Shown piece by piece: positions 716-21,121 of a DNA stretch of 40,973 nt. This DNA comes from Phycisphaerae bacterium (lineage in GTDB: Bacteria; Planctomycetota; Phycisphaerae; SM23-33), in NCBI GenBank assembly GCA_021108335.1, contig JAIORC010000015.1:1-40973 (forward strand), in the 5' to 3' direction. The position numbers and the translations under genes were made by a program. Position 1 is the stretch's first letter; each line of letters begins with the position of its first letter. A model generated the notes under the pieces. It was not told the DNA's origin and searched no databases. It saw only the letters and a list, made by a program, of their open reading frames with translations.

Positions 716-3451
716 CTAGAGCGTTCGTGCGATTTCGACCTTCTTGTAGAATTCCAGAATATCGCCTTCTTTTATGTCGTCGTATCCGGCGACTTTCAGG
801 CCACACTCGAGGCCGGCCTTGACTTCGCGGGCGTCGTCCTTGATTCGCTTGAGGCTGTCGAGCGAACGTTCGTCTTCGAGAACCACATTGTTGCGGATGA
901 TTCGCACTTTGGCGTTTCGCTGCGCGACGCCTTCGACGACGTAACAGCCGGCGATAGTGCCCAACCGCGAGATCTTGAAGACTTGCCGCACCTCGGCCCG
1001 ACCAAGCGATTCTTCCTTGATTTCCGGGGTCAGGCCTTCTTCCAGCGCCTTCCGCATGTCCTCGATAATCTCGTAAATCACACGGTAGAGTCGTATCTCG
1101 ACGCCTTTTTCCTCAGCCAGCCTGCGGGCGTTCGCATCGGCAACAACATTGAAGCCGATAATCAGCGCGCCGCTGGCTTCGGCGAGTGTTACGTCGCCGG
1201 TGCTGATGCCACCGACGGCGGTGTGAATAATGTTGAGCTTCACTTCGTCGGTATTGATTTTGATCAGCGAGCCGGTAAGTGCTTCGATTGAACCCTGCAC
1301 GTCGGCCTTGATGAGAACCGGCAGTTCGTGAATTTCGCCGGCTTCGATCTTGCCGAACAATTCTTCCAGGCTTGTCGGTGCGTTTGACGCGGCTGCCAGT
1401 TCCCTGGCCCGGTCCATGCTGCGGCGTTCTTCGGCGACGCTGCGGGCCTTTTCGAGGTCCGGCAGTACGAAAAAGCGGTCGCCGGCTTCGGGCACTTCGT
1501 CCAGGCCCGTGATTGCAATGGGCGTTGACGGCGGGGCTATTTTTATCGGTTTGCCCTTATCATCGTAAATCTGCCGCACCTTGCCGAAACCGCGACCGGC
1601 CATGATGACATCGCCGATTCGCAACGTGCCGTCAAGGTTCAGCAGCGTTGTAAGTACGCCCTTGCCGGGGTCCATCTGGGCTTCGATTACGTAACCGCTT
1701 GCCGGGGCGTCGGCCTCGGCTTTGAGTTCGAGAATTTCCGCTTCGAGCGAGAGCAGTTCGACCAGTTCGTCGATGCCTTCGCCGGTTTCGGCGGAGGTGT
1801 GGATGACTTCCGTTTCGCCGCCCCACTCGCGTGGCTGCAGGCCATGCTCCGCGAGTTGCCCCAGTGCCCGCTGAATGTTGGCATTTGACACGTCAATCTT
1901 ATTCAGCGCGACGACAATTGGTACGCCGGCGGCCTTGGCGTGGCTGATTGCCTCGACGGTCTGAGGCATTACGCCATCATCGGCGGCGACGACAAGCACA
2001 ACCACGTCGGTCATACTCGCCCCGCGGCTGCGCATGGCGGTGAAAGCTTCGTGGCCTGGCGTGTCGAGGAACACTACGTGCTTGTCCTCGAAATCATGCC
2101 GGTACGAACCTATCGCCTGTGTAATGCCGCCCGCCTCGCCACTGGCGACGGTGCTCTTGCGGATGTAGTCCAACAGCGACGTTTTGCCGTGGTCTACGTG
2201 TCCGAGGAAGGTTACGACCGGGGCACGGGTTGCCATTTCGCCTTTTTCGCGGGCCTGGAGCTTCTCCATGAGTTCATCCTCGGCGGTTTTGGCCTTGGCG
2301 ACAACCAGTTCGATGTCGAATTCGAGCATAATCGTTTCGGCCAGCTCGGTTTCGATTGTCTGGTTGATTGTTGCCATTGTGCCCATACCCATGAGCTTTT
2401 TGATGATTTCCGTACTCTTGATACCGGTAACAGCCGAGAGGCCTTTGATCGTGATTGGCTCTTCGATTTCGACCTTGCCCGTTTTGGCACCGGCGCTGAC
2501 GACATGTCCGCCCCGGCTGACCGTCGCCCGGCGACGTCGCAGGCCATGGCCCGCCCCGGCGATGCGATCCGCCCGTTCCTGTAAGTCCTTGTTACGCCAT
2601 TCCTTGAGCTTCTCGCCGACAACCTTCGCGTCTCCGGTTCGCCCGGTTTTTCGTCGCGGGCTGCGCTTCGTACCCTTCTTTGCGTCGGGGCCTTGCTTGG
2701 CGCCGCCTCGGGCACCCGCTACTGGGGCCGCCGGGCCTGAACCGGTTCTGTTCCGCTCGTCCGCCAAGCTGCCACCGCGTCGGCCTCCACCCATCATGGG
2801 CGTCTCGCCGTAATAGCTCTGGCGGGGCTGGGGACGCGGGGAATAATCCGGCTTTTCAACCCGAACGACACGGGGGCCTTGCAACTGGGCCGGCTTGGGC
2901 ACCACCTGCGGACCTGCCGGGACAATCGGTTTTTCTTCAGGTTCTTCTTCAGGTTCCTCGACGGGTTCCTCGACGGGTTCTTCGGCGGGTTCTTCTTTTT
3001 CCGCAACAAGTTCGGCAACAGCGACTGGTTCTGCCGTAGTGGCGGGCTGTTCTGTAACTTCCTCCGCCACCGGAGTTTCCGCCTCGACGGCAGCGACTGC
3101 CGTGGCGGCCTCTTCAGCTTTCGCAACCTCCTCTTCCGCTTGCTTTTCCTGTTCCTTGGCCAGTGCTTCGGCAATGGCTTCGTCTTCCAGTTGCTTTTTG
3201 GTTTTGCGACGCCGGGTTTTCTTCGCCTTTTCGCGGGCTTTTTCCAGGTCTACGTGTTTGGTTGTTTCCACGGCGGTGTGTTCCGTGCCGGGAGCTTCCT
3301 CGCTGAACCAATCGCGGATGGTCTCTTCCAGTCCTGCCGAAAGAGAGGCCATGTGATTCTTCAGTTCAATGCCTTCTGCGCGGCATTTTTCGAGGACGTC
3401 CTTGCTGCGGACGCCCAATTCTCGGGCCAATTCAAATACGCGCGTTGCCAA
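716..3451 (-). CDS. infB: Translation initiation factor IF-2
   Basis: GTPase that delivers initiator tRNA to the 30S subunit and promotes subunit joining; 911 residues. Domains in order: an N-terminal IF2_N module (residues 1-50); a long low-complexity linker rich in Glu, Pro, Ala and then Arg/Gly (about 55-320); a second IF2_N-type module (about 330-390); the G domain with G1 GHVDHGKT at 417-424, GGIT at 441-444, DTPGH at 463-467 and NKID at 517-520; then the beta-barrel and C-terminal fMet-tRNA-binding domains. The start codon is TTG (3451-3449), preceded by a strong GGAGG with 7-nt spacing; no better ATG exists upstream. Infrequent start codon use is unusual for a highly expressed factor. 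Confidence 0.97.
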
Positions 3452-3603
3452 AAAGTACCTCCGGACCTGTTTTTACGTGCCGTGTTTGGGCATCCCGCCG
3501 GGGATGTTCCCGCACGTGTCCGTTACGTTATTTTCTATTTCCTGCGAAACTATACTTGCTTTATATCTGCCGGATGGAAATGCTGCAGCCATCCGTATAC
3601 TCG

Positions 3604-5013
3604 TTATTCCGCTGGCGTTTCTTCACCGTCGGTGGTTTCGGCCGCCTCAGACGATTCCGTCTTCACTGCCGCAACAGCGGCGTCGGGTTCCATCACGGCA
3701 GCGGTATCTTCCGTTGCTGCCGGAGTTTCCGTGGATTCTTCCTGGGTTTCCGTCGCAGAATCATCGGTCGCTGCAGCGGCTGGTTTTGTTTCCGTGGCGT
3801 CTTCCGTGGCGGAGGCGTTTTCCGCTTTCTTTGCAGCCTTCTCGGCTGCCTTTGCGGCTGCCTGTGCTTCGGCGACACGCTTGGCCTCTTCGGCGCAGCG
3901 GATGACTATTTTCTGGGCCAGTTCCGCATCCATGTTCAATTCGTTGACCAGCGGGTCGGGGCCTACTTCTTCCACGTCCAGCACGCTGACCATGCCCATA
4001 GCCGTAACCTGATCCACAATGGTCGAGTCCACGCCTTCGACTTCCCGCATAGCCTTCTCCAGGATATCCAGGCCGTTGTTGAACTCGTCGGGCGTGAGAA
4101 TGTCGATGTCCCAGTTGGTCAGGCGGGCAGCCAGGCGGACGTTCTGCCCTCGCTTGCCGATTGCCAGGGACAACTGGTCGTCGATAACCACAACAGTGGC
4201 CCGGCCTAACTCGAAGCAAAGGGCAACTTCGGCAATCTCAGCCGGCTTGAGGGCGTTTGCTATCAGGATTTTTGACGATTCGTTCCAGCGAACGATATCG
4301 ATTTTCTCGCCGCCGAGTTCGTCGACGATGTTCTTGATCCGGCTGCCGCGAATGCCAACGCAAGCGCCAACCGCGTCAACCTTCGGGTCTATGCTACTGA
4401 CTGCGACTTTCGTGCGATAGCCTGCCTCACGACTTAACGCGTTGATTTCGATGATTCTCTCGGAAACTTCCGGTACTTCCAGGTCGAACAACGCCCGGAT
4501 GAAATCCGGGTGCGTCCGGCTGAGGATAATTTTCACCGAGCCGGGATGCTCGCGGACCTCCAACACCATCGCCCGGATTCGCTCGTCGATCTGGTGGCTG
4601 TCACCGGGAATCTGCTCGCTCTTGGGCAACAGGGCTTCGCATCGGTCGACATCCACCACCAACGAGCCGCCTTCCCACCTGGCAACGCGTCCGGTAACGA
4701 TCTGTCCTTTCCGCTGGACATATTCATCGTAGATGCTGCCTCGCTCGGCTTCGCGGATTCGCTGAATCATTACCTGCTTGGCGGTCTGGGCGGCGATGCG
4801 CCCCAGATCGCGAATGGACATAGGCTCGCCGTTGACCGCCGCGGAAATTTCCCCGGTCTGGCGGTTGATGGAGACTTCGATCTCGTCCTCCAACGTATTG
4901 GCCTTGCGAATTGCCGAAAGCATCGCCATCTCCAGATCGTCCAGGACGACGTTGGGGTCGATGTTCTTCTCGCGGGCAATGCCTTCCACTATGCGTAACA
5001 GTTCCTGATTCAT
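3604..5013 (-). CDS. nusA: Transcription termination/antitermination factor NusA
   Basis: RNA polymerase-associated elongation factor, 469 residues. Visible parts: NusA N-terminal domain (residues 1-125), S1 domain beginning GQIVTGRVARWEGG, two KH domains (KH1 containing VGACVGIRGSRIKNIV; KH2 containing DDQLSLAIGKRGQNVRLAARL), a helical hairpin-like segment (NNGLDILEKAMREVEGVDS) and an Ala/Glu/Thr-rich acidic tail of about 80 residues. The frame extends upstream to 5124, but ATG 5013-5011 is chosen because AGGAAGC lies just before it and the family starts there. First gene of the operon. rimP, which usually precedes nusA, and ylxR/L7Ae-type genes, which often follow it, are absent; the 152-bp nusA-infB gap holds no ORF. 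Confidence 0.96.
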   Translation of the reverse strand: MNQELLRIVEGIAREKNIDPNVVLDDLEMAMLSAIRKANTLEDEIEVSINRQTGEISAAVNGEPMSIRDLGRIAAQTAKQVMIQRIREAERGSIYDEYVQRKGQIVTGRVARWEGGSLVVDVDRCEALLPKSEQIPGDSHQIDERIRAMVLEVREHPGSVKIILSRTHPDFIRALFDLEVPEVSERIIEINALSREAGYRTKVAVSSIDPKVDAVGACVGIRGSRIKNIVDELGGEKIDIVRWNESSKILIANALKPAEIAEVALCFELGRATVVVIDDQLSLAIGKRGQNVRLAARLTNWDIDILTPDEFNNGLDILEKAMREVEGVDSTIVDQVTAMGMVSVLDVEEVGPDPLVNELNMDAELAQKIVIRCAEEAKRVAEAQAAAKAAEKAAKKAENASATEDATETKPAAAATDDSATETQEESTETPAATEDTAAVMEPDAAVAAVKTESSEAAETTDGEETPAE

Positions 5014-5121
5014 TATGCTTCCTGTGTCTATATTCAGTTTATCTTCAGTTACCGGCGGCATTTTCGCCCGGGCCGTTCGGTTTCCGGCGGGCGAGAAACA
5101 AAATACTGCCAAAAAAAGCAA

Positions 5122-5149
5122 CAAAAAAAAGTGGGTTCAACGCCCACTT
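5122..5149 (-). terminator. Intrinsic terminator or attenuator ahead of nusA
   Basis: Read on the minus strand: AAGTGGG, a 7-nt loop, CCCACTT, then a run of T. This is a textbook rho-independent terminator, about 110 nt upstream of the nusA start codon and pointing into nusA. It could end transcripts from the histidine kinase gene 600 nt upstream, or attenuate a nusA leader transcript. Confidence 0.7.
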
Positions 5150-5757: not shown

Positions 5758-8307
5758 CTAATCGAACAATGTTTTGAGTGTTTTGGTTTCGGTGGCGAGA
5801 ACCCGTGTAACGGTGCGACAAAGCTCTTCGGGGGTGAATGGTTTATGGAGGAAGTTCAGTTCAATTTCCGGCATGGTATTATGAAAAGCCTCATCTTCGG
5901 CATATCCGGAAACAAAGAGCACTTTCAGTTCCGGCTGGATTTCCAGCAGCAATTTCGCCAGCACTGGGCCTTTCATGCCGGGCATGACTACATCGGTAAT
6001 CAGCATGTCAAATTGTCGGGGTGTCTCCTGGAGCAGATTGACGGCTTCGGCTGGGTCGCCCGATGCCTGAACATGATATCCACGATCCCGCAAAATACGG
6101 ACTATCAGTTGTCGGACGGGGGCGCTGTCTTCGACAACCAGGATGGCTTCGGTACCTGTTTTCACCATGCCGGCGGGGATGGGAGGTTCCTCGTCGGGCA
6201 CATCGGCATGGATTCTCGGCAGGCATATCTGGACGGTCGTGCCGCAGTCGACCTGACTGTCTATGCTGATATGCCCGCCACTCTGCCGGACAAAACCATA
6301 CACCATCGCCATGCCCAGCCCCGTGCCCTTGCCCTTTTCTTTGGTAGTAAAAAAAGGCTCAAAAACCTGATCGACCGTTTCCCTGGTCATGCCCACACCG
6401 GTATCGTGAATCGAAATAACGACATACGGGCCAGGCGAAGCATCGACCAGAAGCCCCGCCTGGGCAGAGTCCACAACGGTATTGGCGGTCTCGATAAGCA
6501 ATTGTCCGCCGTCCGGCATAGCGTCACGGGCGTTGATGGCGAGATTCATGATGGCCTGTTCCAGGCGATTAGGATCCACGCGGACAACACCAATTCCCGG
6601 AACGGTACGGATTACCAGATCGACGTCCTCCCCGATTATCGCAAGGGATTTTTCCATCTCGCGTAGAGTTCGGCTGGGGTCGATCACCTTTGGCTTGAGG
6701 ATCTGCTTCCGGCTGAACGACAGCAACTCGCCGGTCAACGCGATGGCCTGGCGGGTCGCCCGGTCAATCTGCGTTATACACTCCCAGATTGGATTCTCTT
6801 CGTGCAAATCCCGCAGCAGCAGATCGCAGTAACCCTTTACGACGGTAAGCTGATTGTTAAAATCGTGGGCGACTCCTCCGGCCAATCGCCCGACCGCCTG
6901 CATCTTGGCCGCCTGACGGAGTTGCTCTTCCAACTGATTTTCCAGGGATATGTCCCTGAGAATAAACGCGAAATTGGTGATTACGCCTGCGGAATCCCGA
7001 AGCGGGGAGAGGGTGATTTCCGCATCCAGGGGCCTACCGTTTTTTTTGAGTACGATAATCCGCTCGGCCCAGAAGTTCCCCTCGGCGATAGCCCGGCTCA
7101 TGGCTACCATCGTCTCGGGATCATTTGTATCGGCGTATAAACTATCAAAAGGCCGGCCCATGACCTCCTCGGCTGTATAGCCGAGTATTTTTGTCAAACC
7201 ATGATTGACGTATTCAATTCGCCCGTCGGCGTCGGTGATAACAAAGGCTTCGGCAGCCTGTTCGACCGCCTGGGCCAAACGCTGCCGCTCCTGCTCCATC
7301 GTCAGACGAGAACAAAGATGCCCCAGGAACGAAGCAAAAAGGGAGAGGATTTTCTGCTGCGTTTCGGTAATTCCATTGCCGCTGAACAACGCATCCGCCG
7401 AGACAAACCCGATTGTTTTTTGACCGTCCCATAAAGATGCAACAGTCCGCGGGGCCTTCCCGACAACCCGGCCATGATGATTCCTGACTGCTCCGTCTTC
7501 ATGAAACATTGTGGGTCTATCGGCGGAAAGGGCCTCCATTGTCTGCCGATGCTTGGAGGTGTCGAGCTTGCAACGGCGCTCGTCCCGGATGTGCCCATCT
7601 TCGTCGATACCAAAAGATCCGATCAGCATAGTCGGCTCGGTGCCTGTAAACCATATTCCCATCCGCTCGAATCCCAGTTTTTCCTTGCCCAGCAAAACCG
7701 CCAGCCGGCAGAGATCGTCCCGGGTTTCCGCAGAGGCCAGTATGACATTGACCTCGTGCAAAGCGGTCAGCCGTTCGCGGAAATCCCGTTCCGTGTTCTC
7801 GGAATGACGTAACAGTTCCTCGATTTGGATTTGTTTGGAGCAATCCTGAACGTTTTCCGCAATATGCTCCGTCTGAAGTTCGTGCGCCTGTTTCAATTTT
7901 TCTTCGTTGATACGCACAAGATGTTTTACCCGCCGGCGAAAAACAACAAACCCCATCGATGCCGCAACAATTATTCCCACCCCTGCCCCAAGAGCAATCA
8001 TCGGCCAGGAAAAACCACCGGCGTATCCATCACCCGTGCCAGCCAACAGGCTGGAGGCGTTTGGACTTTTGTAGCGGCTGGGTTCATTGGAATCGACTTG
8101 GGAAACATACTTCACCGGCAGATCAGCCCGAACCGCCGAACCCCATATAGAAAACAATAAAAAAACCGGAATAATCCCGGCTAAAAATGTCTTTCGGCAA
8201 CGTGTAACGGCTGTCATTGGACGACGAGAACTGCAGCCTGGCAAACATCGAAAACCCTTGGCTGCAGATCGTTGATACAAAGGGAATTCTGAAACCAAAT
8301 CACACAT
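5758..8307 (-). CDS. Membrane hybrid histidine kinase (GAF-PAS-HisKA-HATPase-REC)
   Basis: Sensor kinase, 849 residues. Order: a hydrophobic segment at about 38-58 resembling a signal peptide or first membrane helix, a short periplasmic part, a membrane helix at about 99-122, a coiled coil, a GAF-like domain (about 180-335), a PAS domain (346-455), HisKA with H-box AGGVAHDFNNQ (phospho-acceptor His481), HATPase with N box around Asn592 and DTGVGM at 635-640, and a C-terminal receiver domain (720-845) with acidic pair Glu726/Asp727, phospho-acceptor Asp772 and Lys822. Start: ATG 8307 has GAGG ten bases upstream; an internal ATG at 8217 would begin directly before the hydrophobic segment but lacks such a site. 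No response regulator or target gene is adjacent, so it is an orphan; the ligand is unknown. Confidence 0.93.
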   Translation of the reverse strand: MCDLVSEFPLYQRSAAKGFRCLPGCSSRRPMTAVTRCRKTFLAGIIPVFLLFSIWGSAVRADLPVKYVSQVDSNEPSRYKSPNASSLLAGTGDGYAGGFSWPMIALGAGVGIIVAASMGFVVFRRRVKHLVRINEEKLKQAHELQTEHIAENVQDCSKQIQIEELLRHSENTERDFRERLTALHEVNVILASAETRDDLCRLAVLLGKEKLGFERMGIWFTGTEPTMLIGSFGIDEDGHIRDERRCKLDTSKHRQTMEALSADRPTMFHEDGAVRNHHGRVVGKAPRTVASLWDGQKTIGFVSADALFSGNGITETQQKILSLFASFLGHLCSRLTMEQERQRLAQAVEQAAEAFVITDADGRIEYVNHGLTKILGYTAEEVMGRPFDSLYADTNDPETMVAMSRAIAEGNFWAERIIVLKKNGRPLDAEITLSPLRDSAGVITNFAFILRDISLENQLEEQLRQAAKMQAVGRLAGGVAHDFNNQLTVVKGYCDLLLRDLHEENPIWECITQIDRATRQAIALTGELLSFSRKQILKPKVIDPSRTLREMEKSLAIIGEDVDLVIRTVPGIGVVRVDPNRLEQAIMNLAINARDAMPDGGQLLIETANTVVDSAQAGLLVDASPGPYVVISIHDTGVGMTRETVDQVFEPFFTTKEKGKGTGLGMAMVYGFVRQSGGHISIDSQVDCGTTVQICLPRIHADVPDEEPPIPAGMVKTGTEAILVVEDSAPVRQLIVRILRDRGYHVQASGDPAEAVNLLQETPRQFDMLITDVVMPGMKGPVLAKLLLEIQPELKVLFVSGYAEDEAFHNTMPEIELNFLHKPFTPEELCRTVTRVLATETKTLKTLFD

Positions 8308-9314: not shown

Positions 9315-10229
9315 CTATGGCCCGGCGTGTTTTTTGGCGATGTGGGGCGGAACGATCAGCTTGTTCCTGTGCGGCGAGAGAGAAATCTCCAACGGAGTAA
9401 CCGGGCCTACGTCGCCATCCACCTCGCAGTTCTGCGGTGTCTCGATTTCGATTCGGATTGTTTTGGCCTGTCGATAGATTTGACTTTCGCGGTTCTGGCC
9501 CATCTGTAACATCGTACAGGCCGAATGCATCAGCAGTCCCACCTGGTGGCAGCAGCGGAAAATCACCAGGTCAAGCAGGCCGTCGTCGCTACGGGCTTTG
9601 TGACAGATTCTCAGGCCGGACGAATATCGGCTGATATTGCCCACAAACGCAAGCCCCCGCCCGTGGTAAACCTCCTGACCGTCCGCCCATGCCCGTATGA
9701 CGGGAAAATTATGCTCCCAGAACGTCCGCCAGATCGGCCAGAAGTAACTCAGGTGCGAAATGTGCCCCGTGCGGTCCGTCGTTACGCGATGGACAACCTC
9801 GGCATCGAAGCCGACCCCGAGAATCGAATGAAAATGCTTGCCGTTGACCACGCCGATATCGCATTCGATAATCTCGCCGGTTTCCAGCAGGTCTATCAGC
9901 TTCTCGGCGTTGCGGGGAATACGCAATTCCTTGGCCAGCAGATTCTCCGTGCCCGCCGCGGCGATAAGCAGCGGCACGTCACTGCCGGCAAGCCCTTCGG
10001 CAACCTCGTTGATCGTGCCGTCGCCGCCAAAGGCGATAACCGCCGAGGCATTGGGCGCAATCTCGTGCGCATAGCGGGTTGCGTCGGCGGCGGCCTGGGT
10101 AACGTATTCCACCAGCGGCCGACCGGTCTGGGCTAACAGGCTGCGGAGATCCGAAAGAATCCGCTTTTTGCCCCCGTACCCACTCTTGGGATTGATAATC
10201 AGATGAACTGGTTTTGATTTTTTTTTCAT
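9315..10229 (-). CDS. Diacylglycerol kinase-family lipid kinase
   Basis: 304-residue member of the DAGK catalytic (YegS/DgkB/LCB5) family, which phosphorylates diacylglycerol or related lipids with ATP at the membrane face. The N-terminal domain opens with [13 protein letters not shown], and the nucleotide motif [13 protein letters not shown] is at 68-80, followed by [13 protein letters not shown], matching the family's GTxNxxA element. The C-terminal part ([28 protein letters not shown]) fits the beta-sandwich domain. Whether the substrate is diacylglycerol, a sphingoid-like base or another lipid cannot be told. No strong ribosome-binding site precedes the ATG. Divergent from the next gene on the right. 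Confidence 0.88.
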
Positions 10230-10268: not shown

Positions 10269-10296
10269 TTGCAGCGGACGGCCGTATGGATATAAT
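10269..10296 (+). promoter_or_regulatory. Promoter of the TPR/alpha-CTD gene
   Basis: TTGCAG (10269-10274), 16-bp spacer, TATAAT (10291-10296) matches the sigma-70-type consensus well. The expected start near 10303 gives a leader of about 105 nt before the ATG at 10408. Confidence 0.6.
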
Positions 10297-10407
10297 ACTC
10301 AAAACCGTCGACAAGGCAATTCATCAGTTTTGCCGCGGGAAGGTTTTCTCAAATGGCTGGGGAAACCGCAAATAAAATCCTACAACAATAATTAGGAGTT
10401 AAAACAT

Positions 10408-11742
10408 ATGGAACAGGCTGTTGCTGACGCCCTGGCTTCGATTGCCATGAAGGAAACGTGGACAGTGGAAGATTATCGAGAACTCGTGGAACAACTTTCT
10501 GCCACCACGGATGCCACAAAAGCTCTTCGCGAAATACTTGCCGACCTTGAAGCGCAGAACCCCGCGTCAAAGGGCGGTAGTGCGTTGAAGATCGGTATAG
10601 GCCGGTTCATGCTTTGCCGCTTTAACGAAGCGTTGGAAGCTCTCGGCCTCGCCACGGACAACAAAGACCGTCGCTATTTCGCCGGGCAGTGCTACCGAAG
10701 CATGCGGAAGCACGGCAAGGCAATCGAGGAATTCCAGCGAGCCAAAGACAAGGGCTGGGACGGGCCAGAAGTGGACGTGCTGATCGTCGAGATGCTGGCC
10801 TTGGGTGACCAACTGGACGCGGCGAATAAGGCTTACGCAAAAATTTCCGCCAGCCTGGGCGAAAGTGCGGACTTTTACTACCTCAAGGGACTGCTCCTCG
10901 AAATGGCAGGCCGGGGCGAAGACGCCATCGAAGCCTATGACACCGCACGGGAACACCAGGAAGATCATCCCGAAGCAACATTCCGATTAGCCTACTACCT
11001 CGACCTCCACGGCGAGGAGGAAGAAGCCGTCGAACTCTACGAAGACTGCCTCAATCATCCGTCGGTTTACGTAAGCGCACTGCTGAACCTGGCTGTGCTG
11101 TATGAAGACTCCGGGCACTTTAACCTGGCGATCTCCACCCTGCAAAAGCTTCTGGATGTCTGCCCCGACCATCCGCGGGCAAGGCTGTTCCTCCGCGATG
11201 CCGAAGCCTCCACCCACATGCTCTACGACGAAGACCGGGCACGACGAATCGCCAAACACAGCGCCGTACTCGACATACCCGTAACAGATTTCGAACTGTC
11301 GGTACGGGCACGCAATTGCCTCAAGAAGATGAATATTATGACTTTGGGCGATCTGGTCAGCACGAGCGAGGCGGAGCTGCTTGGCTACAAGAACTTCGGA
11401 GAAACGTCCCTCAAGGAAATCAAGGACATGCTCACCGCCAAGAGATTACGTCTCGGCCAGGCTTTGGAAGAGCAGCAGGAAGCGCTCGCAAAGGGTATAT
11501 TCGGCGAAGCGGAGCAAGTTCCCGAAGAGGAACAAGGCGTCATGGGCATACTTATTTCGCAGGTCGAGTTTTCCGTTCGTGCCCGCCGGGTGCTGGAACA
11601 GCTTAACGTTCGATCCCTCGGCGACCTGGCTGCCAAAAGTGAAGCCGAACTGATGGGACAGAAAAACTTCGGCCAAACCAGTCTCAGTGAAATGCGACAG
11701 CGCCTGGCGGAAAACGGCCTGAGCTTCCGAAACTCGGAATAG
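10408..11742 (+). CDS. TPR protein with two RNA polymerase alpha-CTD-like domains
   Basis: 444 residues. The first 270 form TPR-like helical pairs (for example GKAIEEFQRAKDKG, GEDAIEAYDTAREHQ, EEEAVELYEDCLNH, FNLAISTLQKLLDVCP). Two modules resembling the C-terminal domain of RNA polymerase alpha follow, at about 290-350 and 384-442. Module 1 has FELSVRARNCLKKMNI and NFGETSLKEIKDML; module 2 has EFSVRARRVLEQLNV and NFGQTSLSEMRQRL. Set against E. coli alpha, the DNA-contacting Arg265 is kept in both (Arg300, Arg391), as are the Gly296, Ser299 and Glu302 equivalents; Asn268, Cys269 and Lys271 are kept only in module 1. AGGAG lies before the ATG. No alpha N-terminal assembly domain is present, so it is not a polymerase subunit. 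A DNA-binding or polymerase-contacting regulator is inferred. Confidence 0.88.
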   Translation: MEQAVADALASIAMKETWTVEDYRELVEQLSATTDATKALREILADLEAQNPASKGGSALKIGIGRFMLCRFNEALEALGLATDNKDRRYFAGQCYRSMRKHGKAIEEFQRAKDKGWDGPEVDVLIVEMLALGDQLDAANKAYAKISASLGESADFYYLKGLLLEMAGRGEDAIEAYDTAREHQEDHPEATFRLAYYLDLHGEEEEAVELYEDCLNHPSVYVSALLNLAVLYEDSGHFNLAISTLQKLLDVCPDHPRARLFLRDAEASTHMLYDEDRARRIAKHSAVLDIPVTDFELSVRARNCLKKMNIMTLGDLVSTSEAELLGYKNFGETSLKEIKDMLTAKRLRLGQALEEQQEALAKGIFGEAEQVPEEEQGVMGILISQVEFSVRARRVLEQLNVRSLGDLAAKSEAELMGQKNFGQTSLSEMRQRLAENGLSFRNSE

Positions 11743-11763
11743 GGAATACCCGCTTGTTTTTTT

Positions 11764-11812
11764 GAATTTCGAGTTTGTTCAGGATTTCGAATTCAGGGCT
11801 TCGAATTTCTAC
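11764..11812 (+). repeat. Degenerate heptamer tandem repeat after a stop codon
   Basis: From 11764 the sequence reads GAATTTC, GAGTTTG, TTCAGGA, TTTCGAA, TTCAGGG, CTTCGAA, TTTCTAC: seven consecutive 7-mers of one degenerate pattern. It begins about 20 bp after the stop of the preceding gene. See the finding on heptamer repeats. Confidence 0.7.
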
Positions 11813-11833
11813 GCAGCCACGGGGCAGGGACGA

Positions 11834-13117
11834 ATGACGAAGAAGATGCGAAATGCTATGGTGAAATGGTTGTCACCGTTGCTGCCGGTGGCGATGCTGG
11901 TTGTGGCGTGCGTAGCGGCTTCGCTTATCCTTTCGAGCTGCCAGCCGGACATCGCCGCCGTCCCCCAAAAACCTCTCCGCTTCAAAGACATTCCCACGGT
12001 GCGAGTGCGTCTTACGCCCCAGCGGCTGGTTTCGGCGCAAATTTTCACCTCCAGCGGATATCGAATCCTGGTCGACGGGCAGGAAGTCAGTAACTCGCCT
12101 GATCGCCTGAAGCAAACTAAAATCCGCCGCGAGCACGGCTGCTGGATCGTAGGCCGGATCAACCGACACGGAAAGCGGCTTGACCTCGTGCCGACAGCCG
12201 GCGGCCTTGCCGGAATAGGCAAAAAAGTCTACCGCGGCTGGCTGGTGTTTCATGCCGCCAAGGGCAACAAATTCTACGTCCACAACCACGTGAACATGGA
12301 AAGCTACCTCGCCAGCGTAGTCGCCAAGGAATTATACCCCAACTTCCACCCGGAGGCGTACCGCGCCCAGGCCATCGCCGCCCGGACGTATGCCCTTTAC
12401 GAAATCGCTACGCGAGGCCGAAAGTCCAGCTTCGACGTGTGGGACTCGCAGGCGTCGCAGGTTTACGGCGGCATGCGGGCCGAAACCGACAAAAGCTGGG
12501 CAGCCGTCCGCTCGACCCACGCATGGGTGCTGGCCCACGGCGAACGCGGCAACGAGCAAATCTTCCTGACGCAGTTCTCCGCCTGCAACGGCGGATACGT
12601 CAACGGCGCACATGTGCTCCGTACGCTCAAGCCGTCCGAGAAAATCCAACCCCTCGCCGGCGGACAGTTCGACGGCGACGGGCGTGGCTGCCCATATTAC
12701 GTTTGGCCGCCGGTGAAAATCTGGAAGCGGAACATCTACGAGGCGCTGGCGAAGACCTATCCCAAAATCCGCAAGCTGGGCAACCTCAAGACGTTGCGGG
12801 TCAAGAAAAGCACCGCTTACGGCAGGCACATCTGGCTGGAGGCGGTAAACCGCTCCGGCAAGGCTGTTCCCATCCGTGCCGACGACGTAAGGCTGTGTCT
12901 GCTGCGGTCGAAAATTCCCGCAGCCAAACGGCTCCGCTCCATGAACTGCAAAATCCGCGACATCGGCAGCGAGATCGAATTCTACGACGGCAAAGGCTTC
13001 GGCCACGGCGTGGGCCTAAGCCAATGGGGTACCGAAGAAAAAGCTCTTCGCGGCATAAAGGCCGAAGAAATCCTCGAATTCTACTACCCCGGCGCAACAA
13101 TCTTCCGGGCATATTAA
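11834..13117 (+). CDS. SpoIID/LytB domain lipoprotein
   Basis: 427 residues from ATG 11834. The open frame extends upstream to 11762, but that part is the heptamer repeat. An N-terminal hydrophobic stretch (PLLPVAMLVVACVAASLIL) ends in a lipobox LSSC, so it is probably a membrane-anchored lipoprotein. The body is a SpoIID-family domain: NMESYLASVVAKELYP, FHPEAYRAQAIAARTYALYE, DSQASQVYGG and, near the C-terminus, GFGHGVGLSQWGTEEKAL and YYPGATIF. SpoIID of endospore formers is a lytic transglycosylase acting on denuded glycan strands; outside Firmicutes the family is annotated as amidase enhancer or stage II sporulation-like, so only a cell-wall glycan role is inferred. It follows the TPR/alpha-CTD gene by 91 bp on the same strand. 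Confidence 0.9.
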   Translation: MTKKMRNAMVKWLSPLLPVAMLVVACVAASLILSSCQPDIAAVPQKPLRFKDIPTVRVRLTPQRLVSAQIFTSSGYRILVDGQEVSNSPDRLKQTKIRREHGCWIVGRINRHGKRLDLVPTAGGLAGIGKKVYRGWLVFHAAKGNKFYVHNHVNMESYLASVVAKELYPNFHPEAYRAQAIAARTYALYEIATRGRKSSFDVWDSQASQVYGGMRAETDKSWAAVRSTHAWVLAHGERGNEQIFLTQFSACNGGYVNGAHVLRTLKPSEKIQPLAGGQFDGDGRGCPYYVWPPVKIWKRNIYEALAKTYPKIRKLGNLKTLRVKKSTAYGRHIWLEAVNRSGKAVPIRADDVRLCLLRSKIPAAKRLRSMNCKIRDIGSEIEFYDGKGFGHGVGLSQWGTEEKALRGIKAEEILEFYYPGATIFRAY

Positions 13118-13532: not shown

Positions 13533-14054
13533 ATGAGACCAGTACTTGTGGCAATTTTGCTTTCCGTGGCGGCATGCATGTCGTCCTGCGAACGGTCCTC
13601 GTCCGCAACCCCGGCTGGGAGTAGCTGGCACCGCATCAGCAACAACTGTTCTGCCTACTGCTTTACATGGAAAGGAAATGAGATTCCCTATGTTCTCTTT
13701 CTGCGCGAGACTCGTGTTACACCCGAGGGGCCGGTCCGTGGCGGACGAAGTAGCGTCAAGGGAGACACCGTATCGAATAGTGCGTGTTTGCGACTCGACG
13801 GCAAGGAGTTCTCTGTTGGCTTCACATCGGCCACACCCGATGTCATCCGAATTGATGGGAAAGAGTACAGGCTCTCCAATGGCCGGGTTTTTGTCTGTCG
13901 CATGAAGAACGAAACCCTCGTGGTCAAGCAGGTAGCCGTACCCATTCAGCCAAGTGCTGACTCTCGGCAGGAAATAATGCGCCTTGTACAAGAGAAGCCT
14001 GTTCAGCAGCTTCTCTCTGATGAGGCGGAAACGCCCATGCCGCCAAAATCCTAG
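13533..14054 (+). CDS. Hypothetical lipoprotein
   Basis: 173 residues, no family recognised. Start ATG 13533 has AAGGAG six bases upstream. The N-terminus is a lipoprotein signal peptide (VLVAILLSVAACMSSC, either Cys could be lipidated, the second more likely). The mature protein has paired segments such as GKEFSVGF and GKEYRLSNGRVFV that suggest beta strands, and a Gln/Glu/Pro-rich end. It lies first behind a dyad-controlled promoter and 25 bp before a HigA-type antitoxin gene, the place where a HigB toxin gene would normally be. It does not resemble HigB (too long, secreted, no RelE-like pattern). Confidence 0.75.
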   Translation: MRPVLVAILLSVAACMSSCERSSSATPAGSSWHRISNNCSAYCFTWKGNEIPYVLFLRETRVTPEGPVRGGRSSVKGDTVSNSACLRLDGKEFSVGFTSATPDVIRIDGKEYRLSNGRVFVCRMKNETLVVKQVAVPIQPSADSRQEIMRLVQEKPVQQLLSDEAETPMPPKS

Positions 14055-14079
14055 AAAGACAAAGGTGAATGTCGTGGCT

Positions 14080-14370
14080 ATGCGAATAAAACCCATGCAT
14101 CCAGGCGAGGTTCTGCTGGAGGAATTTCTCAAACCGATGGAGATCAGTCAGTATCGCCTGGCCAAGGATATCGGCGTTCAGCCCACGCGTATCAACCAGA
14201 TCGTCAAAGGCAAAGCGGGAATCTCCGCGGACACAGCCCTGCGTCTCGGACTGTATTTTAAAATGTCGGCACAGTTCTGGCTTAATTTGCAGGCACACTA
14301 CGAACTCGAGGTCGTCAGCGACAAACTCGGAAGCCGGCTGAAAAAAGAAATCGTCGCCCACGTAGCCTGA
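14080..14370 (+). CDS. HigA/VapI-type XRE-family antitoxin, without a toxin gene
   Basis: 96-residue helix-turn-helix protein. It opens with RIKPMHPGEVLLEEFLKPM, the hallmark of the HigA/VapI antitoxin family, then the HTH (SQYRLAKDIGVQPTRINQIVKGKAGISADTALRLGLYF) and the family's FWLNLQAHYELEV ending. GTG 14074 (two codons upstream) is an alternative start, because AAAGGTGA is better spaced for it. HigB is normally encoded immediately upstream; here a lipoprotein gene occupies that place and none is seen downstream. The protein may be a solitary transcriptional regulator that still represses the promoter at 13452-13491. Confidence 0.9.
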   Translation: MRIKPMHPGEVLLEEFLKPMEISQYRLAKDIGVQPTRINQIVKGKAGISADTALRLGLYFKMSAQFWLNLQAHYELEVVSDKLGSRLKKEIVAHVA

Positions 14371-17171: not shown

Positions 17172-18743
17172 CTATTCTTCTTTGCCAGTCTTCTTCTCAG
17201 CCTTTTTGGCGGTTTTCTTGGCTGTCTTCTTCTTTGCCGTGGCCTTTGGCTTATCCGTATCTTTATCGTCGGATTTCTCAGCCGCTTTCTTTGGGGCGGT
17301 TTTCTTTTTTGCAGCCTTCTTTGCGGTGGCCTTGGGTTTTTCTTCCGGCGATACTTCGACTATCTTGGCGTCTTTCAGCAAAATGTCGATAGCTTTTTCT
17401 TCACGGATCGACTCGCCGACCTGCTCCAGTGCCCCTTCGGCAGCCAGCTCCTGGCGGAGCCGTTCGGGACGGCGGCGATACTGGGCAGCCATCTGGGCGA
17501 TACGGGCGTTGATTTCGTCTTCGCCGACGGAAATATCCGCTTCGTCGGCAAATTTGCCCAGAATGAACGACAGCTTGAGGTCTTTGGTGGCTGTCTCTTC
17601 GGCGGCAGCTTGCAGTTGGGTCTGATTTTCCTGTATCCGCTCGCGGGACACGCCCTTCTGCATCAAATCGAGCATCTGCCGCTGCAGCGTACGCTGGGTC
17701 TGGCGGGCGATGACGCCTTCGGGCAGCCCGATGTCGGTCTTTTCGATGAGATATTCGCAAATCTGACCACGCAGAGAGTTTTGGATTTCCATCTCGACAC
17801 GCTCTTTAAGCCGATCCGCGACGAACTGGCGATATCCATCCACGGAATCAAACCCAGCCGAGATGGCGAACTCTTCGTTGAGTTCCGGGATAATCCGCCG
17901 GGAAACCTCGTGAATGGTCAACTCGACGGTCAATTCCTTCTCCCGCCAGTCTTCGTTGGGGTGCGTCTCGGCAGCGGTGGTTTTCAGCGTAGCGACGTCG
18001 CCGACTTTCTTGCCGAGAAGCTCCTTGCCGAGATCGACAATGGGCAGTCCCTCGACCAGGCCGGGCGCTACACGCAGCGGCACGCGGGGGTTTTCGTGCT
18101 CCACGCCGTCACCAGTGATTTTGGCAGCAGCGAGAATGCCGTCGCCGTCGGCAGCGGCGTCTTCGGTCTTTTCGTATCGGGCCATGCCCTCGCGGATATT
18201 GCTGATGTATTCGTCGATTTTTTCGTTATCGACGTCGAAGATTTCCTTGTTGACGGTAATGCCTTTGGTTTCGGGCAGTGCGAATTCCGGCTCGATTTCC
18301 ACTTCGAAGCTGAATTCCATGTCTCCGGTGTCGGGCAGTTCGATGTCGTCGAGTTTGATATCCGGCTCGCCCATGGTTTTGAGGTCGGCGTCTTCGACGG
18401 CAGAGCCGATCGACTCGCCGATGAGAGCGTTGCGGACGTCTTCGCCGACTTCCTTGCCGAAGCGTTTTTCGATAAGCCGGCGCGGCGCCCTGCCGACGCG
18501 GAAACCGGGAACCTGGGCACTGGTATTCAATTCGCCGAACATTTCGTCCAGTTTGCCGTCTATCCGGGCGCGATGCACGGTAACGATAACCTTCTTCTTC
18601 AATGTGCCGGCATCTTCGACGGCGACGGTGTTCTTGGGCAGATTGTCTTCCTGCTGGTCATCCTGGGTTTCTTCGGCCTGGGTTTCTTCAACCGGGGCGT
18701 CCTGGACTTCATCCGCTTTGGGATTCGGGGTTTCTTCAGACAT
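17172..18743 (-). CDS. tig: Trigger factor (ribosome-associated chaperone)
   Basis: Chaperone at the ribosome exit tunnel with a peptidyl-prolyl isomerase domain. 523 residues, longer than the usual 430-450 because of two tails: an acidic Glu/Gln-rich N-terminal extension (1-40) and a Lys/Ala-rich C-terminal tail (468-523: repeated TAKKAAKKKTAPKKA-like units) resembling a histone H1 tail. Core: ribosome-binding domain with PGFRVGRAPRRLI (79-91), FKBP-type PPIase domain (about 195-280) and helical substrate-binding arms (285-465). GGGAG lies 7 nt before the ATG. Genomic order tig-clpP is conserved widely in bacteria. The basic tail could bind rRNA or DNA; this is inference. Confidence 0.94.
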   Translation of the reverse strand: MSEETPNPKADEVQDAPVEETQAEETQDDQQEDNLPKNTVAVEDAGTLKKKVIVTVHRARIDGKLDEMFGELNTSAQVPGFRVGRAPRRLIEKRFGKEVGEDVRNALIGESIGSAVEDADLKTMGEPDIKLDDIELPDTGDMEFSFEVEIEPEFALPETKGITVNKEIFDVDNEKIDEYISNIREGMARYEKTEDAAADGDGILAAAKITGDGVEHENPRVPLRVAPGLVEGLPIVDLGKELLGKKVGDVATLKTTAAETHPNEDWREKELTVELTIHEVSRRIIPELNEEFAISAGFDSVDGYRQFVADRLKERVEMEIQNSLRGQICEYLIEKTDIGLPEGVIARQTQRTLQRQMLDLMQKGVSRERIQENQTQLQAAAEETATKDLKLSFILGKFADEADISVGEDEINARIAQMAAQYRRRPERLRQELAAEGALEQVGESIREEKAIDILLKDAKIVEVSPEEKPKATAKKAAKKKTAPKKAAEKSDDKDTDKPKATAKKKTAKKTAKKAEKKTGKEE

Positions 18744-19222
18744 TGGGGTACTCCCTTTTTGCTATCCGCCGCGACCAGACGGACCAACGCGGCCGTCCCC
18801 AGCGACGAACCCACCGACGATATCGGCGGTACAATTATCGTAGGCCATAGAATTTACGACAAACCGCCCCCCACGTCAATAGGAGATTTCACGCTAGGTG
18901 GCACAGGTTTGTAACCTGTGCAAATTCCCACGATATCGTGGGAGACAGAAAAACACATGGTCCCCAGGGGACCATGCCACCCAACATCGTGGTAAATTTC
19001 GCGTGGTGGCCTTCCCAGGCCACCACGGCACAGGTTGCAAACCTGTGCCACCAGCCGCCCACTTGTCAATAGGAGATTTTTCCCCTGCCGCAACAAGGCG
19101 TTTGACGATACAATGGTATTGAGCTGGTCGGTTGACTTGCCGGCTGAATAGCTGCTCTACGGAATGGCTGCTTTGTCGCCGCACAACACAGGGGCGTTTG
19201 CTCCCCCTTGAAAGGATTTGTC
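18744..19222. repeat. Repeat-filled 479-bp intergenic block between tig and the permease
   Basis: Divergent spacer. It holds GGCACAGGTTTG-type hairpin (18898-18921), CCCACGATATCGTGGG (18927-18942), CATGGTCCCC, A, GGGGACCATG (18956-18976), CATGCCACCCAACATCGTGG, GTGGTGGCC...GGCCACCAC (19003-19026) and GGCACAGGTT...AACCTGTGCC (19027-19049). The whole repeat group is bracketed by a perfect 15-bp direct repeat GTCAATAGGAGATTT at 18875-18889 and 19065-19079. The parts at 18744-18870 and 19080-19222 show no recognisable features. Confidence 0.8.
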
Positions 19223-21121
19223 GTGAAATTGTCGCGGAGCCTTGGCTTCTGGGATGTTTTTTGTATCGCCGCGGGCGCGATGATCAGCAGCGGTCTGTTC
19301 ATATTGCCGGGCCAGGCGTTTTTGTCGTCCGGGCCTGCGGTTGTGCTGGCCTATGCCCTGGCGGCGTTGATGATGATCCCAGCCATGCTCAGCCAGTGCG
19401 AACTAGCCACGGCTATGCCCAAAAGCGGCGGCACGTATTTTTTCATTGAGAGAAGCATGGGAGCTTTGCCCGGCATTCTGGCGGGTCTGGCAAACTGGTT
19501 GAGCCTGGCGATGAAGAGCGCATTCGCCATGGTCGGAATAGGGGCGTTCGCCCGGCTGATATGGGCCGACGCCAACCTGACCCCGGCACAATGGATATGG
19601 CTGATTAAAGGCGTCGCCGTCTGCTGCTGCGTGATTTTTGCCGCGCTGAACTGCCTGAGCGTCAAAATGACCGGGCGGGCACAAATCGTGATGGTGGTCA
19701 GCCTGCTGGCGGTGCTGGTGATTTTTGTGTTCGTGGGCGTTCCCAATGTTCAACAACATCCGAATTTCGACAATTTTCTGGGCAAGGGTTTCTGGAGCGT
19801 CTTCGCCACGGCGGGCTTGGTGTTCGTATCGTTCGGCGGGCTGACCAAGGCTGCCAGCGTCGCCGAGGAAGTCCGCAATCCGGGCCGAAACCTGCCGGCA
19901 GCGATGTTCCTGGCGTTTATCATAGTCTCGGCCCTGTACATCGCAGCCGTTTTCGTAATGGTGGGCGTGCTGCCAGGCGGCGAAATCGCCGGCGGCGACT
20001 TCGTAAACCTTACGCCGCTATCCAGCGCAGCCGGGGCCTTCATGGGCAAGGGCGGGCTTGTCCTGCTATCCGTCGCGGCGATACTGGCCTTCATCACGAC
20101 GGGCAACGGCGGCATACTGGCAGCCTCGCGAAGCCCGCTGGCAATGAGCCGCGATGGGCTGCTGCCCAGACCTTTCCAGATAGTCTCCCGCAAATTCGGC
20201 ACGCCGTACGTCAGCGTTCTCTGCACCAGCATATTCATGATCTCGATGATCCTGCTGCTGAGCATCGCCGACCTGGTAAAAGTCGCCAGCACGATGATGC
20301 TGATCCTGTTCCTGCTGGTCAACGTTTCCGTGCTGATTATGCGCGGCAGCAAAATCCAGAACTACCGTCCGAAATTCCGCAGCCCGCTGTTCCCGTGGAT
20401 ACAATTAGCCGGCATTGGCGTCTACGCGGTTCTGATCGTCGAATTGATCGCCATGCTCGGCCTCGTGCCGCTGATTACCACCGGCGGATTCGTACTGGCG
20501 AGCCTGCTGTGGTACTTCGTCTACGTCAGGCCGAAAATCACCCGCGAAAGCGCACTGCTCTACATGGTCAAAAAAGCCGTCTCCAGAGACATCTATCGCA
20601 CCGGCCTGGAAGAAGAACTCAAACACATCGCCGTGGAGCGGGACGAAATCACGCATGACCGATTCGACCATATCGTAAAGGATTGCGAAATATTGGACAT
20701 GCTCGGCCCAACCTCCGCCGAAAAGATGTTCGCCGCCGCCGCGGAACTGCTAGCCGGGCGTCTGAACATATCCGCCGAAACGCTACAGGAAAAATTCCGC
20801 GCCCGCGAAGCCGCCTCCAGCACGGTAATTCAGCCGGGCCTGGCAATTCCGCACATTATCATCGAAGGCCATCACCTCTTTGACCTGCTGCTGGTACGCT
20901 GCCGCGAGGGAATTATTTTCGACCCTGAGCAGCCATACGTCAAAACCGCCTTCATCCTCATCGGCTCATCGGATGAGCGGAACTATCACCTGCGGGCACT
21001 GATGGCCATCGCCAACATCGTCCAGGAACCGGGCTTCATCGAACAATGGCTGGACGCCCCCCGCCCAGAACACCTCCGCGACCTGATACTACTGTCCAGC
21101 CGCAAAAGAGATAAGGCCTGA
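19223..21121 (+). CDS. APC-family amino acid permease fused to a PTS EIIA-like domain
   Basis: 632 residues from GTG 19223, chosen because AAAGGA lies 6 nt upstream; an in-frame TTG at 19208 has no such site. The first 440 residues are a 12-helix amino acid-polyamine-organocation transporter: GFWDVFCIAAGAMISSGLF in helix 1, CELATAMPKSGGTYFFIE in helix 2, FGGLTKAASVAEEVRNPGR between helices 6 and 7, and AASRSPLAMSRDGLLP. After a linker, residues about 485-625 form a mannitol/fructose/nitrogen-type EIIA domain: SSTVIQPGLAIPHIIIEG has the phospho-acceptor-type His544, and DERNYHLRALMAIANIV has the second conserved His (about 589). Regulation of uptake by PTS-type phosphorylation is inferred; no EI, HPr or EIIBC gene is in the window. 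Confidence 0.9.
   Translation: MKLSRSLGFWDVFCIAAGAMISSGLFILPGQAFLSSGPAVVLAYALAALMMIPAMLSQCELATAMPKSGGTYFFIERSMGALPGILAGLANWLSLAMKSAFAMVGIGAFARLIWADANLTPAQWIWLIKGVAVCCCVIFAALNCLSVKMTGRAQIVMVVSLLAVLVIFVFVGVPNVQQHPNFDNFLGKGFWSVFATAGLVFVSFGGLTKAASVAEEVRNPGRNLPAAMFLAFIIVSALYIAAVFVMVGVLPGGEIAGGDFVNLTPLSSAAGAFMGKGGLVLLSVAAILAFITTGNGGILAASRSPLAMSRDGLLPRPFQIVSRKFGTPYVSVLCTSIFMISMILLLSIADLVKVASTMMLILFLLVNVSVLIMRGSKIQNYRPKFRSPLFPWIQLAGIGVYAVLIVELIAMLGLVPLITTGGFVLASLLWYFVYVRPKITRESALLYMVKKAVSRDIYRTGLEEELKHIAVERDEITHDRFDHIVKDCEILDMLGPTSAEKMFAAAAELLAGRLNISAETLQEKFRAREAASSTVIQPGLAIPHIIIEGHHLFDLLLVRCREGIIFDPEQPYVKTAFILIGSSDERNYHLRALMAIANIVQEPGFIEQWLDAPRPEHLRDLILLSSRKRDKA

Follow-up and report, generated by a model that had tools for sequence, protein, structure and literature searches.

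The window analysed here, a stretch of 40,973 nucleotides from a Phycisphaerae genome, carries on its plus strand a 444-codon open reading frame (10408..11742) that starts with ATG and is preceded, 9 nt upstream, by AGGAG (10394..10398, +), read from the sequence as the ribosome binding site. Its assignment as the coding sequence of a 444-residue TPR protein with tandem RNA polymerase alpha-CTDs is based on the open frame and ribosome binding site, on Pfam matches (RNA_pol_A_CTD twice, together with TPRs) and on orthologues across the phylum Planctomycetota. A diacylglycerol kinase-type gene (9315..10229, −; Pfam DAGK_cat and YegS_C) lies divergently upstream, as it does for the orthologues at three other loci (L005, L028 and L034), and a spoIID-like gene (11762..13117, +), identified by Pfam SpoIID and by synteny in orthologous loci, follows directly downstream. 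A perfect TATAAT at 10291..10296 (+) is a candidate −10 hexamer; its best −35 match, TTGCAG (10269-10274), agrees at only three of six positions, and the candidate is absent from the output of a consensus scan, which found no plus-strand promoter above threshold. The strong promoter of its own that an earlier, sequence-only reading had given the gene is thus a weak claim.

The N-terminal part of the protein (residues 2-271; 10411..11220, +) is a TPR-type helical solenoid. TPR_1, TPR_2 and TPR_8 all score above their cut-offs, with TPR family matches covering residues ~150-260, and the solenoid fold is seen both in the AlphaFold2 model (pLDDT mostly >90) and with Foldseek, whose best matches for this part are TPR solenoids; the ~270 TPR residues placed ahead of the CTDs by the sequence-only reading are therefore well founded. 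A predicted helix (residues 275-288; 11230..11271, +) connects the last TPR to the first CTD, and just before it lies an M..YDE motif in which M271, D274 and E275 are nearly invariant in the orthologue alignment.

The two C-terminal stretches had been taken for alpha-CTDs, to be checked by profile search and structure prediction, and both analyses bear this out. The protein matches Pfam RNA_pol_A_CTD with 127.1 bits (E 2e-37, hmmscan) as two domains, of which module 1 (residues 283-343; 11254..11436, +) scores 80.8 bits and module 2 (residues ~374-435; 11527..11712, +) 54 bits, each above the curated PF03118 cut-off of 23.8 bits. The equivalents of the DNA-contacting Arg265 are Arg300 in module 1 (codon 11305-11307) and Arg391 in module 2 (codon 11578-11580). 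The modules are joined by a flexible linker (residues 351-383; 11458..11556, +; pLDDT <50 at 365-371), and the CTD1–CTD2 linker ranges from 25 to 53 residues (median 29) in 45 orthologues. No match to the alpha N-terminal domain families RNA_pol_L and RNA_pol_A_bac was found in the protein by hmmscan, so that the description of an alpha-CTD pair without this domain holds. Consistent with this, NCBIfam RpoA models reach the protein through the CTD part only and far under their cut-offs (for the TIGR02027 RpoA equivalog, 119.5 bits against a cut-off of 227.8), whilst a phmmer comparison of the C-terminal part with PDB chains returned RNA polymerase alpha chains only.

The full-length AlphaFold2 model, built with 41 orthologues (mean pLDDT 91), shows in succession the solenoid (2-271), the connecting helix (275-288), CTD1, the flexible linker and CTD2. 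When the tandem CTD1–CTD2 region was modelled alone (pLDDT 89), the pTM was 0.51, a low value, and the relative orientation and placement of the two modules are therefore not predicted. The tandem model superimposes on solved alpha-CTDs with deviations of 0.6-1.0 Å over ~65 columns, including the Caulobacter alpha-CTD on AT-rich DNA (9zum; 0.6 Å, 49% identity) and the alpha-CTD in complex with sigma region 4 and UP/−35 DNA (3n97; 0.9 Å, 51% identity), and its best 50 PDB matches are all either alpha chains of RNA polymerase or complexes that include such a chain. The predicted fold is that of an alpha-CTD and not a plain SAM or HhH domain with a different surface; SAM and generic HhH domains are ruled out by the PF03118 profile together with the fold match.

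The genome (3.78 Mb, 91% complete) contains three PF03118 domains, one in rpoA and two in the TPR-alphaCTD gene; together with the profile scores, this census disposes of a chance likeness. The rpoA gene is normal and complete (348 aa, with its own CTD) and lies on another contig (contig 26), so the TPR-alphaCTD protein is an extra protein, and a split or replaced alpha subunit is ruled out. The alpha-CTD itself is well known, and the protein belongs to the alpha-CTD domain family, although not to RpoA: it shares with RpoA the fold of the CTD (PF03118; 0.6-1.0 Å and ~50% identity to the Caulobacter and E. coli domains) and, in module 1, the DNA-contact residues, but it lacks the alpha N-terminal domain and carries two tandem CTDs in a single chain, preceded by TPRs, and the modules fall into two clades, each separate from that of planctomycete rpoA. 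Alpha-CTD-like stretches outside RpoA are also found in the BREX kinase PglW (NF033442), to which the protein scores 30.5 bits, solely over its alpha-CTD part, against a cut-off of 990, but neither a kinase nor a BREX context is present here, and in the 95-residue hypothetical protein NF005841/PRK07758, likewise devoid of an alpha N-terminal domain, which is matched by two stretches (42.7 bits) but is small, lacks TPRs and has a cut-off of 115 that is not reached. AfsR-type SARPs are TPR-containing transcription regulators that contact the alpha-CTD (PMC10936776); in AfsR, however, a BTA domain binds the polymerase's alpha-CTD, whereas the TPR-alphaCTD protein carries alpha-CTDs itself. In the open full-text literature, to which the search was confined, no description of a TPR/alpha-CTD protein came up.

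The 265 determinant, which we take from the E. coli alpha-CTD to comprise R265, N268, C269, G296, residue 298, S299 and E302, is preserved to different extents in the two modules. In module 1 the counts among 45 orthologues are R265 45, N268 44, C269 44, G296 45, T298 43, S299 43 (Thr in the remaining two) and E302 45, the same set, T298 included, as in planctomycete rpoA. In module 2 they are R265 45, G296 41, T298 40, S299 41 and E302 44, with N268 replaced by Lys/Arg in 37 of 45 and C269 mostly Ala/Cys. The earlier observation that both Arg265 equivalents are kept thus extends to every one of the 45 orthologues. At 90% conservation, module 1 retains all seven positions and module 2 only four; the corresponding enrichment among conserved polar positions (7/7, P 4e-4, and 4/7, P 0.008) is descriptive only, because some determinant residues also hold the fold. 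The acidic pair of the 261 determinant is present in module 1 (D259 in 44/45, E261 in 42/45), and the RpoD of the host has an HPVR (HPxR) arginine aligned with E. coli R603, the sigma residue that alpha residue 261 is reported to meet (PMC7419079). Module 1 differs from rpoA by Glu297, Arg267, Phe260 and Lys272, of which Glu297 (43/45; Lys297 in rpoA) is a specific departure that counts against the reading preferred below. The mean net charge is +0.95 for module 1 and +1.66 for module 2, compared with −0.15 for the rpoA alpha-CTD.

The TPR-alphaCTD gene is a core gene of Planctomycetota, and is mostly single-copy. A phylum-wide sample of 294 genomes gave some match in 293 and, in about 277 (counted from the table), a strong orthologue, defined as E <1e-30 because the rpoA CTD alone falls short of such a score; only two of the 17 genomes without a strong match are at least 90% complete. 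The relatives that the sequence-only reading had placed in planctomycetes are therefore found throughout the phylum, and among closer relatives the tandem region was matched in 295 of 298; L034, from a Phycisphaerae MAG, is a 64%-identical locus. Exactly three alpha-CTDs (rpoA and two modules) occur in 100 of 118 better-quality genomes, four to seven in 14, and two in the remaining four; these are from genera g92 and g202 (family f49), whose TPR protein has a single alpha-CTD match left, CTD2 being gone or degraded beyond recognition by the profile. At four f49 loci (L046, L047, L048 and L054) the Gly296 and Ser299 positions of CTD2 are changed, with Arg265 and the whole of CTD1 kept; four genomes (G303, G019, G121 and G274) have five to seven alpha-CTD matches each, presumably because of extra paralogues or contamination. 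The listed plasmid matches span the alpha-CTD part only, and the two inspected are complete rpoA genes, which rejects a plasmid element; a phage element is rejected as well, as viral contigs gave no match.

A tree built from 114 CTD sequences (63 columns) places CTD1, CTD2 and rpoA each on one side of a branch (one change each), with modest ultrafast bootstrap support (77, 78 and 82%, respectively). The sampled phylum has therefore most likely inherited the TPR plus tandem alpha-CTD architecture from its ancestor, and a recent or local fusion is ruled out by the phylum-wide clade that each module forms. CTD1 has short branches, and CTD2 evolves faster. Arg267 is common to both modules (40/45 and 39/45), but is mostly Ser/Thr in rpoA, which hints that the modules may have arisen by internal duplication.

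With domain content, fold, conserved DNA- and sigma-contact residues, core status and synteny as observed, the reading we prefer, although tentatively and at somewhat less than even chances, is that of a soluble, vertically inherited Planctomycetota transcription factor whose tandem alpha-CTDs bind AT-rich minor grooves and whose TPRs dock a partner. The two linked modules would act like the polymerase's own pair, with Arg265-type side chains entering AT-rich (UP-like) DNA by its narrow minor groove; module 1 would be the canonical reader, and the more basic module 2 would play an auxiliary part. UP elements comprise proximal and distal alpha-CTD subsites (PMC4496709); a flexible linker of ~29 residues could allow the modules to sit on adjacent subsites and so to grip adjacent AT-rich minor grooves, as the polymerase's alpha-CTDs do. 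Since module 1 keeps the 259/261 pair that contacts sigma region 4 in the polymerase, stabilisation of the holoenzyme is possible: when bound near −42, module 1 may touch sigma region 4 through this acidic pair, and would either stabilise the holoenzyme at the promoter or take the place of the polymerase's alpha-CTD. A regulator, a sigma factor or the polymerase would presumably dock on the TPR solenoid, and this would set where or when the protein acts; we infer activation rather than repression. Against this reading, conserved alpha-CTD residues also serve the HhH fold, and module 2, besides missing Asn268/Cys269, has decayed or disappeared in family f49. The sequence-only reading had likewise proposed a protein that reads UP elements or contacts sigma region 4 outside the polymerase; profile, structure and phylum-wide conservation agree with it, whilst sequence cannot pick between a UP binder, a sigma region 4 contact and a decoy.

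A wider form of the preferred reading, in which the protein is a general initiation factor of the whole phylum, its polymerase-free tandem alpha-CTD reading UP-like DNA and contacting sigma region 4 as the TPR arm recruits phylum-specific regulators, is doubtful; if true, upstream promoter recognition would be split between the polymerase and a detachable 'alpha-CTD pair'. Outside the polymerase, the alpha-CTD has seldom been treated as a module in its own right, and the transcription machinery of Planctomycetota is little studied; here the pair is a nearly universal, ancestral feature of a phylum, with its DNA-contact surface under strong constraint. If UP-like DNA is bound, planctomycete promoters would have a second upstream reader, and alpha-CTD models based on E. 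coli would have to be extended by a further component for planctomycetes.

The same surfaces would suit a decoy or competitor that, without the polymerase, ties up UP elements, sigma region 4 or alpha-CTD-directed activators and so dampens alpha-CTD-dependent promoters: those of module 1 are the same as in the rpoA alpha-CTD, and a protein without the alpha N-terminal domain is unable to assemble as alpha. We consider this unlikely, as a core gene that is nearly universal and mostly single-copy is more readily explained by a constitutive partner than by an antagonist, and as a decoy would have no need of the large conserved TPR array; the conserved DNA-contact surface, moreover, speaks for DNA binding rather than for a decoy without DNA contact. 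It is quite unlikely that the modules are plain HhH protein–protein modules, i.e. alpha-CTD-derived domains reused as interaction surfaces only. In module 2 the determinant is indeed no longer complete, and f49 has this module in degraded form or not at all; the alpha-CTD fold binds proteins too (the fold matches include the Spx complex 1z3e), but module 1 keeps all seven DNA-contact positions over the phylum and Arg265 is invariant even in the faster-evolving module 2.

The window also contains nusA (506 aa) followed by infB (719-5124, −), a transcription/translation gene pair that is conserved and lies ~5 kb from the TPR-alphaCTD gene. Because of this shared window, and because E. coli NusA-AR2 binds the alpha-CTD (PMC6614801), we considered an elongation or termination scaffold, in which NusA or other polymerase-associated factors are bound by the alpha-CTD modules and a further machine is brought in by the TPRs. 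The alignment of the window's NusA to a 407-residue NusA chain (4mtn) runs past the KH domains; however, the genome has no match to the NusA C-terminal AR repeat (TIGR01954), nusA is near the gene in none of 50 orthologue stretches, and such a scaffold would need no conservation of the DNA-contact surface, which makes it improbable.

The neighbourhood was scored as the next same-strand gene at 45 non-redundant loci: ruvA in 20, spoIID in 14 (the window included), tgt in two, queH in one and none of these in eight. The TPR-alphaCTD gene is usually the first of a conserved block, in the order tpr-alphaCTD, ruvA, ruvB, queH, spoIID, tgt, yajC, secDF, which is whole at L046, L047, L048 and L054 and partial at other loci; ruvA, queH and spoIID were named by Pfam, and the others are what we take, by sequence recognition, to be ruvB, tgt, yajC and secDF. 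The spoIID of the window is what remains here of this block. A chromosome or recombination factor, binding AT-rich DNA and acting together with RuvAB where DNA is branched or transcribed, would account for the 20 loci with ruvA next on the same strand but is very improbable, since spoIID, tgt or queH is next in most other loci, which makes the association one with a mixed block rather than with ruvA in particular, and since the ruvA of the window's genome sits elsewhere, away from the TPR-alphaCTD gene; given the mixed functions of the block, a link to RuvAB or queuosine carries little weight.

Elsewhere in the window lie a gene for a hybrid sensor kinase (5761-8307, −) with PAS, HisKA, HATPase and C-terminal receiver domains, a homologue of which is also found upstream of the L034 orthologue, and one for a HigA/VapI-like HTH_3 antitoxin-type protein (13984-14370, +) with its core from about residue 32. 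Further along are a trigger factor gene with a 523-residue reading frame (17172-18743, −) and a gene that joins an amino acid permease to a PTS EIIA-2 domain (19208-21121, +), an unusual regulatory fusion.
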